Source of the DNA: Halomarina ordinaria
GTDB lineage: Archaea > Halobacteriota > Halobacteria > Halobacteriales > Haloarculaceae
Direction of reading: 5' to 3'
DNA length: 64,000 nt
Assembly: GCF_030553305.1 (NCBI RefSeq)
Contig: NZ_JARRAH010000002.1
Span: 1 to 64,000 of the forward strand
Positions 27,294-33,351 of the stretch are shown here, piece by piece; positions within the stretch are counted from its first letter, which is position 1, and each line of letters begins with the position of its first letter. The notes below the pieces were generated by a model that was not told the origin of the DNA, searched no databases, and saw only the letters and a list, made by a program, of their open reading frames with translations. The translations under genes were made by a program, and so were the position numbers.

Positions 27294-27418
27294 TGGCCCT
27301 ACGGTATCTCCCGGAGAGGTTAATGGAGGAGCGACTCTGTCGACGAACTGTTCGGGTTGCCGACTGGATAGTCGGGTCGCCGCGACCACCAACGGGGTGG
27401 TGTTCGGATGGTAGCTGA
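27294..27418 (+). CDS. Possible 41-codon leader ORF overlapping the next start
   Basis: ATG 27294 follows a gcttttttc box by about 26 bases. The frame encodes 40-41 residues (MALRYLPERLMEERL...) and stops 11 bases inside the next gene. It may be a chance frame; the only support is the TATA spacing and the overlap with the start of the cytochrome-molybdoenzyme gene. Confidence 0.25.
27344..27354. promoter_or_regulatory. Perfect 11-base palindrome cgaactgttcg
   Basis: Arms cgaac and gttcg flank a single t. It lies 54 bases before the start of the cytochrome-molybdoenzyme gene. It resembles the CGAA...TTCG type of half-site reported for haloarchaeal anaerobic regulators such as NarO, though the spacer here is 3 rather than 4 bases. 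An operator role is inferred. Confidence 0.4.
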
Positions 27419-28988
27419 GTCGTTCCCGTGGTGGCTCCGAATCACCCACTGGTTCAACTTCTTCTTCCTGATTCTGTTGTTCCGCAGCGGCTACGAGATA
27501 CTGATGAGCCACCCCAAGCTCTACTGGCACGACGACGCCGAGCCGGGCACCGAGTGGTTGCGGGCTGGTGACCGAGAGCGGTCGACCGAGTTCGACAAGG
27601 AGGTCATCGAGGACGACGAGCTGTGGGCGGCCGAAGACGAGATCGACCCACCCTCCGCACTCGTCTCGCTGCCGGGGCGCGACGCCATCGGGATGGGCCG
27701 ACACTGGCACTTCTGGGGTGCGCTCGGATGGACACTCTGTGGGCTGTTCTACGTTGGCGCGCTGTTTACCACCGGTGAGTGGGCGCGACTCGTCCCGACA
27801 TCGCTCGCGATCTTCCCCGAGGCGTGGGATAACCTGCTGACGTATCTGCAGTTCCGGATCCCTCACGGCGATGGGGGATACAACGCGCTCCAACAGCTGA
27901 CCTACTTCAGCGTCGTCTTCATCCTCTCGCCGGTGATGATCCTGACCGGTATCCTGCAGGCGCCGGCGTTTCGCGCCCACCTCCAGGGCTGGTTTTCGGT
28001 CAATCGGCAGTTCAACCGGAGCGTCCACTTCATCGGCTTCGTCGCGTTCAACGTCTTCCTGTTCGGCCACGTCGCGCTGGTCGCGGCCCACGGCTTCTGG
28101 TCGGAGATGCAGTTGATCGTCATCGGCCCCGGCGAACCCACCGGCGCGCTCGCGGCTGGCTGGACGGCCATCTTCGGGACGGCCCCGACGGGCTACGAGC
28201 TCACCGTCGCGCTCACGCTGCTCGGCGTCGGTATCGTCGGCAGTTTCGCTGGCTTCGCGACGTGGGTGACGCTGAGAGACCCCGACAGGACCCAAAACTG
28301 GCTGGAGATCGTCGTCGACCCGCTCCTGCACCGGCTCTTCACCCACGTCACGTTCTACGACGGCGACGACGTCGAGGAGTACTCGGACTTCGCCCGCGTC
28401 AACGGCAAGCCGCCGCGGAACGACGCCTACCGGGAGCACTTCGAACACGACTTCGAGGACTGGACGGTCACCGTCGACGGCGAGGTCGAGCACGAACTGG
28501 AGTTCTCCACCGAGGAGATCCGCGAGCTGGCCAAACAGGAACACGTCACCCGCCACGACTGTATTCAGGGATGGACCTACTACGCCAAGTGGGGCGGGGT
28601 CCCCATCTCGGCGTTCATCGAACGCTGTAACCCCGACGACGACGTCGAGTGGGTCGTCTTCTGGACGCTCGACGAGAAGTGGGAGTACTCCGAAGACGGG
28701 CCGTTCGAGGAGGTCGACGACGCGGTACCGGAGTTCTACTACGAAGCGATTCGTCTAGAGAAGGCCAGGGAACCACGGTCGATTCTGGCCTACGAGATGA
28801 ACGACGGGGACCTGCCGGTGGCTCACGGCGCGCCCTACCGCCTCCGCATCGAGAGCCAACTGGGCTACAAGATGGCCAAGTGGGTAAACCGCATCGAGTT
28901 CGTCGAGGACTTCGAGGACATCGGGAAGGGCAAGGGTGGCTGGCGCGACGACGTGCTGAACTACTACCCCAACAGCGCCGACATCTGA
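27408..28988 (+). CDS. Cytochrome b-type membrane domain fused to sulfite-oxidase-fold molybdoenzyme
   Basis: 526 residues. Residues 1-300 carry five or so membrane helices of the cytochrome b561/formate-dehydrogenase gamma type, with candidate haem His in ITHWFNFFF, GRHWHFWG and RSVHFIGFVAFNVFLFGHVAL. Residues 340-526 form a sulfite-oxidase-fold molybdopterin domain: HDCIQGWTYYAKWGGVPISAF, with Cys385 as the Mo ligand, and HGAPYRLRIESQLGYKMAKWVNRIEF. It resembles a YedZ-YedY fusion, with an oxidoreductase that exchanges electrons with quinones. The Mo domain faces outside or inside depending on export; no Tat signal is present, so the orientation is uncertain. First gene of a block with a TDT transporter and nitric oxide reductase. 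Confidence 0.85.
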   Translation: MVAESFPWWLRITHWFNFFFLILLFRSGYEILMSHPKLYWHDDAEPGTEWLRAGDRERSTEFDKEVIEDDELWAAEDEIDPPSALVSLPGRDAIGMGRHWHFWGALGWTLCGLFYVGALFTTGEWARLVPTSLAIFPEAWDNLLTYLQFRIPHGDGGYNALQQLTYFSVVFILSPVMILTGILQAPAFRAHLQGWFSVNRQFNRSVHFIGFVAFNVFLFGHVALVAAHGFWSEMQLIVIGPGEPTGALAAGWTAIFGTAPTGYELTVALTLLGVGIVGSFAGFATWVTLRDPDRTQNWLEIVVDPLLHRLFTHVTFYDGDDVEEYSDFARVNGKPPRNDAYREHFEHDFEDWTVTVDGEVEHELEFSTEEIRELAKQEHVTRHDCIQGWTYYAKWGGVPISAFIERCNPDDDVEWVVFWTLDEKWEYSEDGPFEEVDDAVPEFYYEAIRLEKAREPRSILAYEMNDGDLPVAHGAPYRLRIESQLGYKMAKWVNRIEFVEDFEDIGKGKGGWRDDVLNYYPNSADI

Positions 28989-29048: not shown

Positions 29049-30122
29049 ATGGCCAACACACGAGACCCTCCGAGCGATTCGTTCGCCGACAGTGACATCG
29101 CCACGGTCGTAGACGAGTGGAACACGCTGTACTTCGCGTTCGTCATGGCGACCGGTATCGTCTCTGTCGCCGCCTACGAACTGGGCTTGACGTGGGTCGG
29201 CTGGGGGCTGTTCGGCCTCAACGTGGTCGCCTACCTCGTCGTCGGTGGGTTCACCCTCGCACGGATCGGCCACGTTCCGTCGGTCGCACTGCGTGACCTC
29301 CAGTCGTACGACCGTGGAATCGTCTCGTTTACGATGATCGCCGGAACCTGTGTCCTCGGCAGCCAGTTCGTCGTCTTCGATGTGTCGACGACGGTCGCGA
29401 CAGGTCTCCTCGTCGTGGGCAGCGTGCTGTGGGGACTCCTCATCTACGGCGTCTTTTTCGCCCTGACGATCACCGCGACCGACGAGCCGATCGCCCACGG
29501 CATCGACGGCAGTTGGTTCCTCGCGGTGGTCGCTACCCAATCAGTGGCGGTGTTGGCCGGCCTGCTCGCGCCAGTCTCCCAGTCGACCGAGTCGCTGCTG
29601 TTGGTCGCGGTCGGTCTCTACTCGGTCGGCGGCATGTTCTATCTGATCCTCATCACGCTGGTGTTCTACCGGATGACGTTCTACGCGTTCGAGCCACAAT
29701 CAGCGACCCCGCCGTACTGGATCAACATGGGGGCGGTGGCGATCACGACGCTCGCGGGGGCGACCCTGCTCGAAGCCACCGACCAGTGGCAGTTCCTGGC
29801 CGATATCGAACCGTTTCTGACCGGGTTCACCTTCTTCTTCTGGGCCACAGCGACGTGGTGGATTCCGTTGCTGCTCATACTCGGTGTGTGGCGGCATACG
29901 GTCGGTGGAATCGCGCTACCCCACACCCGCGAGGGGTACCGACCGCGCTACTGGGGGATGGTCTTCCCGCTCGGGATGTACGCCGAAAGTAGCCTCCGGC
30001 TGGGGACCGTCACCGACCTCACGGTTCTCACCGCTCTTCCGGAACTGTTCGTCTACGTCGCGCTCGTCGCGTGGGTCGGCGTGAGCGTCGGTCTCGTCCG
30101 TCGACTGGTCGACGTCGTGTGA
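29049..30122 (+). CDS. TDT-family transporter (TehA/SLAC1/Ssu1-like)
   Basis: 357 residues with ten predicted helices. The opening segment WNTLYFAFVMATGIVSVAAYELG and the helix pair FFFWATATWWIPLLLILGVWRH with YWGMVFPLGMYAESSLRLG are typical of the tellurite-resistance/dicarboxylate transporter family, whose members export sulfite, malate or other anions. It lies 60 bases after the sulfite-oxidase-fold gene in the same direction, so sulfite or a related anion is a reasonable substrate guess. No experimental homologue can be named from sequence alone. Confidence 0.82.
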   Translation: MANTRDPPSDSFADSDIATVVDEWNTLYFAFVMATGIVSVAAYELGLTWVGWGLFGLNVVAYLVVGGFTLARIGHVPSVALRDLQSYDRGIVSFTMIAGTCVLGSQFVVFDVSTTVATGLLVVGSVLWGLLIYGVFFALTITATDEPIAHGIDGSWFLAVVATQSVAVLAGLLAPVSQSTESLLLVAVGLYSVGGMFYLILITLVFYRMTFYAFEPQSATPPYWINMGAVAITTLAGATLLEATDQWQFLADIEPFLTGFTFFFWATATWWIPLLLILGVWRHTVGGIALPHTREGYRPRYWGMVFPLGMYAESSLRLGTVTDLTVLTALPELFVYVALVAWVGVSVGLVRRLVDVV

Positions 30123-30180
30123 CGACCGTTCGCCCCAATCATTATGTCTCGTGGTGTCGATGCGCACACAGGGATGAGAC

Positions 30181-33100
30181 ATGCCACTTGGACCCGTTTT
30201 CACCCACAGCCATCCGTCCGACGAGACGACACCGTCGACCGAGTCGAACAGCATCTTCGCAACCGGAGTACGAAAAGCACGGACCGTCTCACACCGGATC
30301 AAAGACCGGGCAACGGACGGGGTCGCGGCCGTCGAGAACGGAGCTGACCAGGTCAAGCAGACCGTCGCCGACGAAGCACGACGGAACGCCCTCGAACGCA
30401 TCGAGCGACGGCTCGAACGAGCGGTCGCTGACTACCCGAGCGTCGACGAACGGGCGGACCGTCGGCTGGACGCGTTCCTCTCACGGTACGCCCTCGAGAG
30501 AGCGCAGCTCGACGAGAGGACGGTCGACCGACTCCGCCGTCGGTTCCGACACGAGGAGCCCACACTGGCCGAGGAGCTTCTGAACTCCCTCACCACGGAC
30601 CGGTCGACCGAGCCGGTCGACGCGAACGAGGGGGGCGAACAGCTCACCGAGACGGTCGAGCAGTTCTGCGAGGACGCGGCGGTCGATTCCGATCAATCGC
30701 TCCGCGGGATCGTCGACGACCTCGTCCAGCAGGACGTGATCACGCTGGGGACGGCCATCGAGTCGCTCGTCGACTCGCTGGACGCTGGCTCTCTCGGGGC
30801 GCACCCGGGTACGGCCGAGTCGGACCGAGAGACGGAGCGTGTTTCCCCTGCCGGCCAGGTGCGACCACCCAGCGCCGATACCGCATCCCCGGACGGTCTC
30901 AGTCCGGTCGCGACCGTCGCCGTCCTGTCGACCATCTTCCTCGCCGGCGAGCGTGCCGGCGATGGAGGCGGTTCGGTCCTTCCGAACGTCGGCACAGCTG
31001 TTCCGGGGCTCGATACGGAGGTCACGACTGTACTGTCGGTCCTGGAGCGAGTGAGTAGCTTCGATAGAGGGGGTACGACGCTCCGACCGAGCGGTTCGAA
31101 GGCGCTGGTCGGCCTCTTCGTCGCCAATCTGGTCGCGATGTCGGTCGGTGCCTGGCTCTCTCGGACCCACGCGCCGCCGATTCCCGAGGAGATTCGGGGC
31201 CCCGATGGCGACCGACTGGTCAGCGCCGCCGGGATCAAACTGGGCAAGAAGGCGTTCCAGGCCAACGGGCTGATGAACCACGGCTCGGTGCTGGGGAACG
31301 GCTCGTATTTCGGCTCCGATCTGACCGCCGACGCACTCAGCGCGAAGGTCGACCACATGCGCGAGTACTACGCCGACGAGCGAGGGGCGGATTCCTTCGA
31401 CGACCTCGACTCGGACGAGCAGGCGATCGTCGCCCGGCGCGTCGAGGACGAACTCGACTCGGAACTCGAGTCCGAAGCGCTCGTCACGTACTCCGCCGCC
31501 GAAGCGTACGCCCACCGACAGCTACGGGCGGAATACGTCGACCGGTACTACCGCGGTCGACCGGAGCACGGTATTCCAGAGGGAGCCGTCGAGAGCCCCG
31601 AGCAGGCCGAACGCCTCGCGGATTTCGCGGCCTGGACGGCCTGGTTCGCACACACGAACCGCCCCGGTTCGGAACACTCCTTTACCAACGACTGGCCCTA
31701 CACTCCCGGAAGTGGGAACCGACCGACCGGGCAAGTACTCGGCTGGAGTACGATCAGCCTCGTGTTGCTGATCGCCGGTGGCGGACTCGGCGTCTGGGCC
31801 TACCACTCCCTGGATTTCGCCGAGCCAGCGACCGACGCCGTCGACGTTCCACATCCGGATTCGGTCGCGACGACGCCGACACAGCACGTCGCCGCGTGGT
31901 ACGTGCCGGTCGCCGGGGTGCTGTTCCTCGCACAGGTGTTCGCCGGTGCGATGCTCGCCCACTACTACGTCGAGCGAGACGACTTCTATCGCATCGGCGA
32001 GCGCTTCGACATCGACGTGCTCTCGGTGCTCCCGTTCTCCGTCGTGCGCACGTACCACGTGAACCTCGGCGTCCTCTGGATTACGCTGCTGTGGCTCGCG
32101 GGGGGACTCTTCCTTCCGGGGCTGTTCAGCGACAGTGACCCGGCAGGTCAATCGCTCGGTGCGGCCGTGTTGCTCGTCGCGCTCGTCGTCACCACGGTGG
32201 GTGCGTTCACCGGGGCCTGGCTGGGCATCCAGGGCAAACTCGGCTCACCCGAAGACGGAGACCGCTGGTGGCTCCTCGGTGCGGAGGGTCTCGAATATCT
32301 CGAGACCGGTCGCGTCTGGAAGGTGCTGTTGCTCGCCGGATTGGCCGGCTGGAGTGGCCTAGTGTTACGCGGGGCCAGACGGGTCGACGAGAGCCCCGTC
32401 GGTCTCGGACACTTCATGACGTACGCCGGTGGCTCGATCGCGCTGCTGTTCGGCGCGAGCATGCTCTACACCCCGGAGACGAACATCGCCGTCACGGAGT
32501 TCTGGCGCTGGTGGGTCGTCCACATGTGGGTCGAGGGCGTCTTCGAGTTCTTCGTCACCGCCGTCACGGCCATCGCGCTCGTCTCGATGGACCTCCTGGA
32601 CAAGACCTCCGCAGAACAGGCGATCATGTTCGAGGTGTTCGCGATCATGGGTGCCGGTATCGTCGGCGTTTCACACCACTACTGGTGGGTCGGCCTGCCG
32701 GACTTCTGGGTGCCGCTGGGGACGACGTTTTCGACGCTCGAGTTCGTGCCGCTGATGTTCATCCTCCACCAGAGCCTCGAGGAGTACCAGACCCTCCAGG
32801 CACAGACCGAGGCGTTCCCGTACACGCTGCCGTTGCTGTTCATTCTCGGCAGCAGTCTCTGGAACTTCGTCGGTGGTGGGGTGCTCGGCTTCTTCATCAA
32901 CATCCCCGCCATCAACTACTTCGAGCACGGCACGTACCTGACGGTGGCCCACGCACACACGGCGACGTTCGGTGCGTTCGGGCTCCTCGCGCTGGGACTC
33001 GGCACGTACATCCTCCGTGTCGTCACCCCGGAAGCCGCCTGGGAGCCCGGTTGGTTCCGGGCCACGTTCTGGCTGACGAACATCGGTCTCATCGTCATGA

Positions 33101-33351
33101 CAGTCGCGTCGCTGCTGCCGCTGGGGTTCAGCCAACTCCGCGCGGTGTACGCCGAGGGGTACGACGCAGCCCGGAGTCCGGAGTTCTACGAGCGACCACG
33201 GAACAAACGGTTGCTCTGGGCCCGGAGTCTCGGTGATACACCGATGATTCTCGGGGCGGCGGCGTTCACGCTCGGTGCTGTCAAACACCTCCTTGCGGCA
33301 CGAAAGGAAGCCGGAAAGCGTCCAGAAAACGAGCTATCGATTCACTCGTAG
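30181..33351 (+). CDS. norB: Quinol-dependent nitric oxide reductase with extra N-terminal region
   Basis: 1056 residues from ATG 30181. Residues from about 305 form a normal single-subunit qNOR: ALVGLFVANLVAMSVGAWL (first helix), GIKLGKKAFQANGLMNHGSVLGNGSYFGSDLTA (haemless cytochrome c-like domain), then 12-13 helices with haem and FeB ligands H626 (RTYHVNLG), H781 (VVHMWVEGVFE), H832/H833 (VSHHYWWVG) and H924/H926 (AHAHTATFGAFG). It reduces 2 NO to N2O with quinol electrons. Residues 1-290 are an additional acidic, mostly helical segment with a short hydrophobic stretch (SPVATVAVLSTIFLAG). GTG 31051 with ggag just upstream would give a standard 766-residue qNOR, so the start is uncertain. 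Confidence 0.88.
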   Translation: MPLGPVFTHSHPSDETTPSTESNSIFATGVRKARTVSHRIKDRATDGVAAVENGADQVKQTVADEARRNALERIERRLERAVADYPSVDERADRRLDAFLSRYALERAQLDERTVDRLRRRFRHEEPTLAEELLNSLTTDRSTEPVDANEGGEQLTETVEQFCEDAAVDSDQSLRGIVDDLVQQDVITLGTAIESLVDSLDAGSLGAHPGTAESDRETERVSPAGQVRPPSADTASPDGLSPVATVAVLSTIFLAGERAGDGGGSVLPNVGTAVPGLDTEVTTVLSVLERVSSFDRGGTTLRPSGSKALVGLFVANLVAMSVGAWLSRTHAPPIPEEIRGPDGDRLVSAAGIKLGKKAFQANGLMNHGSVLGNGSYFGSDLTADALSAKVDHMREYYADERGADSFDDLDSDEQAIVARRVEDELDSELESEALVTYSAAEAYAHRQLRAEYVDRYYRGRPEHGIPEGAVESPEQAERLADFAAWTAWFAHTNRPGSEHSFTNDWPYTPGSGNRPTGQVLGWSTISLVLLIAGGGLGVWAYHSLDFAEPATDAVDVPHPDSVATTPTQHVAAWYVPVAGVLFLAQVFAGAMLAHYYVERDDFYRIGERFDIDVLSVLPFSVVRTYHVNLGVLWITLLWLAGGLFLPGLFSDSDPAGQSLGAAVLLVALVVTTVGAFTGAWLGIQGKLGSPEDGDRWWLLGAEGLEYLETGRVWKVLLLAGLAGWSGLVLRGARRVDESPVGLGHFMTYAGGSIALLFGASMLYTPETNIAVTEFWRWWVVHMWVEGVFEFFVTAVTAIALVSMDLLDKTSAEQAIMFEVFAIMGAGIVGVSHHYWWVGLPDFWVPLGTTFSTLEFVPLMFILHQSLEEYQTLQAQTEAFPYTLPLLFILGSSLWNFVGGGVLGFFINIPAINYFEHGTYLTVAHAHTATFGAFGLLALGLGTYILRVVTPEAAWEPGWFRATFWLTNIGLIVMTVASLLPLGFSQLRAVYAEGYDAARSPEFYERPRNKRLLWARSLGDTPMILGAAAFTLGAVKHLLAARKEAGKRPENELSIHS

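Follow-up and report, generated by a model that had tools for sequence, protein, structure and literature searches.

The 64,000-nucleotide stretch of Halomarina ordinaria DNA analysed here (the window) carries an open reading frame that continues into a quinol-dependent nitric oxide reductase (qNOR) only after a long N-terminal extension, which raises the questions of whether the extension belongs to the enzyme, where it came from and what it now does. An earlier note, made from the letters and translations alone, had read a continuous frame from the ATG at 30181 into a standard qNOR. The frame is indeed unbroken from that ATG to a stop ending at 33351, with PF22085 and PF00115 downstream, and its enzyme portion has the following features:

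30181..33351, + strand: long-form quinol-dependent nitric oxide reductase, a single ORF of 1056 aa in its own clade
31093..31164, + strand: first transmembrane helix (TM1) of the qNOR core, residues 305-328
31183..31701, + strand: NorB cytochrome c-like domain PF22085, residues 335-507 (Pfam, E 8.6e-47)
31888..33237, + strand: haem-copper oxidase/NOR catalytic domain COX1 PF00115, residues 570-1019 (Pfam, E 4.8e-50)

The NorB cytochrome-c-like domain is followed by the COX1 domain within one chain, the arrangement by which a qNOR is recognised. Ligand motifs are present in PF00115 (LAHYY 592, VHMWVEG 779, SHHYWW 831, STLEF 850 and AHAHTATFG 923), and the His and Glu ligand motifs for haem b, haem b3 and FeB all align with those of the Geobacillus qNOR 3ayf. 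Judged by these domains and motifs the ORF, which encodes the only qNOR of the window's genome, is a qNOR with predicted NO reductase activity using quinol. It resembles Geobacillus 3ayf and ordinary haloarchaeal NorZ in having both domains complete, ~735 residues aligned and the ligand motifs kept, but differs from solved and ordinary haloarchaeal qNORs in bearing ~300 additional N-terminal residues and in belonging to a separate clade. Alignments to solved bacterial qNORs begin no earlier than residue 310 (Geobacillus 3ayf) or 329, and ordinary haloarchaeal matches start at query residue ~302, in keeping with the earlier expectation that haloarchaeal qNORs begin near the first helix. The extra region is real, although it spans ~304 residues ahead of TM1 and not the 290 first proposed.

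We asked how widely the extension occurs. With the window extension as query, the 59 nearest genomes yielded only the query itself, while a 392-genome sample of the order yielded relatives, almost all lying in open frames 1000-1120 aa long. A profile built from 28 extensions (A2) returned ~30 intact fusions from the 392 genomes, always in frame, and no intact free-standing extension. Copies outside a full frame were found in G181, G347, G266, G239 and G365, all of them broken, and the fused gene appears to have been lost repeatedly. A whole-protein scan of 84,980 species genomes yielded 80 qNOR loci, ~17 of which were long, the remainder being ordinary and mostly matching only from residue ~302. 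Long forms include those of Halegenticoccus tardaugens (89% identity), Natrinema, Halopiger, Haloterrigena, Halogranum, Natronococcus, Halalkalicoccus, Haladaptatus, Natronoglomus and two Halococcaceae MAGs; L049 (1078 aa) and L051 (1117 aa) are likewise long. In a tree of the core, the long forms made up one clade (SH-aLRT 100) nested among haloarchaeal qNORs lacking the extension, with L170 (G132) branching first and no return to the short form within it.

Several observations accompany this survey. L136, L176, L177, L178 and L179, from five haloarchaeal genomes, are long-qNOR genes that carry frameshifts or are in decay; L170:189-3182 (- strand) and L223 are divergent long qNORs in family f5; and the Natronococcus occultus long qNOR (NC_019976.1, around 124028-124525) is misannotated as a cbb3-type cytochrome c oxidase subunit I.

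No conserved neighbourhood was found around the long qNORs. Positions 29957-33345 of the window are 90.9% identical in DNA to L029:5777-9165 of H. tardaugens, which belongs to another family, and the only region common to the two is the qNOR gene together with ~220 bases upstream (the tail of a SLAC1-type gene). This match has the appearance of a recent horizontal transfer of the qNOR gene alone. In the window, a SLAC1/TehA-family anion channel gene (PF03595, 29049-30122) lies directly 5' of the qNOR; it is not kept beside other long qNORs, though H. tardaugens has a fragment of it. A single ORF at 27408-28988, two genes upstream of the qNOR, combines cytochrome b561 (PF01292) with a molybdopterin oxidoreductase (PF00174).

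Whether the extension and the core form one protein depends in part on where translation starts, and two features bear on this point:

30139..30146, + strand: TATA-like box tcattatg, a putative promoter element recognised by sequence, ~35 bases 5' of the ATG
31051..31053, + strand: GTG at residue 291, the suggested alternative start, which the family does not conserve as a start

The box is present as the earlier note had described it, although its spacing is ~35 and not ~40 bases, and an AT-rich box aligns with it in the H. tardaugens copy (90% identical). The first residues of the extension are alike family-wide (consensus MxLxxxL) and often stand right after an in-frame stop. In several members, the 30 codons preceding TM1 contain no start codon, the one candidate being an ATG within TM1 itself. 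We compared ten close pairs of long qNORs. The dN/dS of the extension was 0.33-0.50 in nine of them and 0.96 in one metagenome-assembly pair, while that of the core was 0.06-0.17, and in 9 of the 10 the core was under selection 2-8 times stronger than the extension. Within the extension, pooled dN/dS was lowest (0.28) at residues 88-125. The genuine fusion that had been offered as one option is supported by conservation across the family, by membership in one clade, by purifying selection and by the lack of a conserved internal start. The other option, a separate upstream gene followed by a qNOR starting at the GTG, is not supported, as that codon is not conserved as a start. The extension would be part of one protein, translated with the core as one chain.

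The extension itself divides into the following parts:

30181..30555, + strand: domain homologous, at the family level, to the IS701-family transposase N-terminal domain, residues 1-125 (profile and reciprocal searches)
30454..30552, + strand: most conserved block, residues 92-124, consensus DRALExFLRRYxLDxxRLDDxTLxAIR (alignment, dN/dS, AF2)
30556..31092, + strand: acidic, mostly helical linker, residues 126-304, common to the long clade
30697..30780, + strand: second conserved block, residues 173-200, consensus LERDAVxVGHxLER, with D185 and E194 invariant
30889..30948, + strand: short hydrophobic helix, residues 237-256, improbable as a membrane span (KD19, AF2 model)

The earlier description of the region as acidic and mostly helical fits these data. 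Asp and Glu make up 18% and Lys and Arg 11% of it overall, though unevenly along its length: the net charge of the window copy is +2 in residues 1-125 and -23 in residues 126-304, and a net charge per 100 residues of -4.5 was obtained for the transposase-derived part versus -11.7 for the remainder. The AF2 model of the extension predicts a mostly helical structure, with pLDDT 94-96 in the block at residues 92-124. A hydrophobic stretch is present, as had been noted, but falls short of membrane-helix strength (the family median of KD19 is 1.24 at residues 237-256 versus 2.06 for TM1) and probably does not span the membrane. Pairwise identity between extensions is low (~20-25%), and seven positions are invariant across many genera; the second conserved block has a dN/dS of 0.37. 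R94, R102, R109 and R119 are kept in more than 90% of members, the window having Q at 109, and R94 is also found in transposases. Since no Cys or His column is conserved in the 28 extensions (best H 15/28, C 11/28), the suggestion that the extension is an electron-transfer partner is disfavoured. A tandem repeat search with the conserved unit found two copies in L170 only, the second at residues 140-167; this is not general, but suggests that the extension may have grown by duplication.

A search with the extension alone, as the earlier note had recommended, yielded the ~30 fused relatives and IS701 transposase N-termini, while the window extension had no significant match in Pfam, NCBIfam, PHROGs or PDB sequences. 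The 28 extensions gave scattered weak matches only in Pfam, with DDE_5 recognised in none, and viral contigs held no relative of the extension. A partial match to DUF7472 (residues 297-328, E 0.064) fell below that family's cut-off and lies on TM1. Structure models were no more informative: neither the extension model (mean pLDDT 61.5) nor a model of the IS701 transposase N-terminal domain (mean pLDDT 64.6) had a significant match among PDB structures, and the second match list was filled by three-helix bundles such as protein A domains, which indicate no function. Both models are of low confidence.

Sequence profiles pointed instead to transposases. In a blind search of the 392 genomes, A2 gave six weak matches outside the long-qNOR family, five of which were IS701-family transposases or their fragments in family f5, the sixth being a 248-aa frame (E 8e-4); a further match, L170, proved to be a divergent long qNOR. 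The matched transposases carry Pfam DDE_5 and DDE_Tnp_1, and their close relatives on haloarchaeal plasmids are annotated as IS701 family, ISHala4 and ISHti12. When A2 was aligned with 13 haloarchaeal transposase N-termini by hhalign, residues 1-125 fell on 2-84 with a probability of 93.8 (P 1.8e-7), collinear from the first methionine; with bacterial transposases added, the probability was 87 (P 4.5e-6). The real comparison scored 50.6, versus at most 15.4 for 60 column-shuffled transposase profiles and 15.3 for the reversed one. In the reciprocal direction, a profile of the 13 transposase N-termini was run against 16,534 six-frame ORFs, a set assembled around these genes in which ~16,000 other ORFs serve as background. 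Right after the transposases it ranked 34 long-qNOR ORFs, a count that includes some genes fetched twice; next came a bacterial IS701 transposase (E 0.39), and the best unrelated ORF stood at E 0.76.

The early-branching L170 serves as an intermediate. Aligned with the transposase L174 from Met1 of both proteins, L170 is identical at 32% of 93 residues; the match has E 3.5e-7 in a set of 19 sequences and z 13 relative to shuffled controls, and its ~84 columns contain a single gap, of one residue. An ungapped block of 33 residues has nine positions with a common consensus, and F99 and Y103, invariant in the qNORs, coincide with F62 and Y66, invariant in the transposases. A transposase profile including L170 retrieved transposases, their fragments and long qNORs from 195 genomes, plus a 703-aa frame at E 0.005. 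The window's own extension is too diverged to match the transposase profile even at E 10, and the window copy is linked to the transposases only through its family. The long qNORs thus resemble haloarchaeal IS701-family transposases (ISHala4, ISHti12) in a homologous N-terminal region of ~85 residues with the same starting methionine, but differ in lacking a DDE domain, in having most polar invariants replaced and in having an additional helical segment and the acidic linker. Specifically, ~45 extension residues are without a transposase counterpart, the transposase-invariant N60, K61, W68, N74 and R77 are mostly replaced, and the DDE catalytic domain (PF13546 / PF01609) is absent from the window protein and all 28 extensions. 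By eye, no IS701 end remains were evident upstream of L170.

The extension is fused to the enzyme, homologous to a transposase domain, confined to a single clade and under selection. Both domains lie in one continuous ORF of single origin with purifying selection on the captured domain, as is characteristic of host-transposase fusions. Because IS701 transposases of bacteria and archaea generally contain the domain, whereas among qNORs it occurs in one nested clade, capture by a qNOR is far likelier than the reverse. We infer that the domain was a DNA-binding one in origin; Tn5 transposases match the transposase profile weakly (E 0.002) and in the DDE region only. By the known fold of qNORs, the segment ahead of the first helix lies in the cytosol, with the cytochrome-c-like domain on the outer side, so that the extension would be cytosolic and anchored to the enzyme. 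Most transposase polar invariants are replaced, the domain is less acidic than the linker and four arginines are near-invariant. We take this to mean that the fold survives, that the ability to recognise transposon ends has probably been lost, and that the domain would now contact a partner protein, the surface of the membrane, or nucleic acid, in the last case without its former specificity. A regulatory role is possible.

We therefore favour, with a probability of about 0.8, the view that residues 1-125 began as an IS701-family transposase's N-terminal domain, were captured once by a qNOR and kept under purifying selection, and most likely serve now as a cytosolic docking, assembly or regulatory domain. 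In such a history, a single in-frame fusion would have placed the transposase domain, along with the start region that belonged to the transposase, ahead of a haloarchaeal qNOR; the domain would later have been extended by the acidic helical linker, and the fused gene would have been retained by purifying selection and passed between families by horizontal transfer. The resulting enzyme would bear a membrane-anchored cytosolic helical domain, its fold kept and its recognition of transposon ends lost, that may act in docking, assembly or regulation on a catalytically ordinary NO reductase.

Other accounts of the origin deserve far less weight. One of them, in which the first 290 codons belong to a gene of their own or to a GC-rich open stretch that is not translated, with the qNOR starting at GTG 31051, is very hard to credit. 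Long frames do stay open in GC-rich genomes, and a Haladaptatus-type genome (G181, L136) splits extension and core between two frames; yet this case, like those of G347, G266, G239 and G365, represents a fused gene that has broken, the homologous extension is fused in ~30 genomes with no intact free-standing homologue, and a conserved start region, the lack of a conserved internal start and a dN/dS below 1 all speak for one protein. We also consider it improbable, if somewhat less so, that the extension is a real fused domain unrelated to transposases, the likeness reflecting convergence of short helical segments. Most extensions are only weakly similar to transposases directly, Pfam misses them and the structure models are unhelpful, but convergence accounts poorly for collinearity from Met1, the reciprocal ranking over 16,534 ORFs, the results of the shuffled and reversed controls and the existence of L170 as an intermediate.

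Present function is less constrained, and our estimates for the readings that follow overlap with that for transposase capture, which is mainly about what the extension is. A serious alternative, though on the unlikely side, is that the transposase part has no role at the protein level: it would have donated an expressed start region, and the tail it brought would be tolerated, with selection acting only against misfolding. The 2-8 times weaker selection on the extension than on the core in 9 of 10 pairs, the ~20-25% identity and the functioning of qNORs without an extension in sister lineages are consistent with this, whereas the seven invariant positions across many genera, the location of the lowest dN/dS (0.28) in the transposase-homologous block and the fact that no member of the long clade has gone back to the short form argue for a role. 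Less likely is that the domain still binds DNA, the enzyme doubling as a membrane-bound regulator or DNA anchor. The transposase origin, the far less acidic character of the transposase-derived part (-4.5 versus -11.7 per 100 residues) and the Arg residues at 94, 102, 109 and 119 in over 90% of members fit such a role, but most transposase-invariant polar residues are lost and no target site, regulon or structure is known; moreover, according to the available parts of PMC12062965, a comparable captured HTH in nematode F-box proteins serves germ-granule localisation, fertility and thermotolerance. More doubtful still is a respiratory enzyme turned membrane-anchored DNA-binding protein, in which NO or quinol turnover would be coupled to DNA contact, making it a one-component NO-responsive regulator or a chromosome or plasmid anchor. 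The analogy with ToxR-like membrane-bound regulators would lie in a cytosolic DNA-binding domain suggested by origin, although the fold searches gave no significant match.

Host-gene capture of transposase domains is well described in eukaryotes, where splicing eases capture. We found no report in the open-access papers searched of archaeal transposase-domain capture on a respiratory enzyme, and to our knowledge a conserved in-frame capture in archaea, on a membrane-bound respiratory enzyme and across several families, has not been described. The long qNORs differ from eukaryotic host-transposase fusions in being archaeal, in arising without splicing and in being joined to an integral membrane respiratory enzyme. 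Their closest likeness is to the F-box A2 family, in which, as far as the accessible text of PMC12062965 goes, an N-terminal Tc1/mariner HTH was likewise acquired in a single event at a host protein's N-terminus and has been maintained by purifying selection; that HTH is needed for the three functions given above, and a section heading names one role in which it is not involved. In the parts available of two papers on haloarchaeal denitrification (PMC8301774, PMC8400030), NorZ is the only nor gene type in haloarchaea and a qNOR variant with such an extension receives no mention.

Taken together, these findings place the long qNORs on a phylogeny as a host-transposase fusion with an intermediate (L170), and give an origin to an extension that the Pfam, NCBIfam and PHROGs families miss. 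They point to a distinct class of N2O-making enzyme in hypersaline settings, and raise the question of what role a cytosolic, transposase-derived domain plays on an NO reductase.
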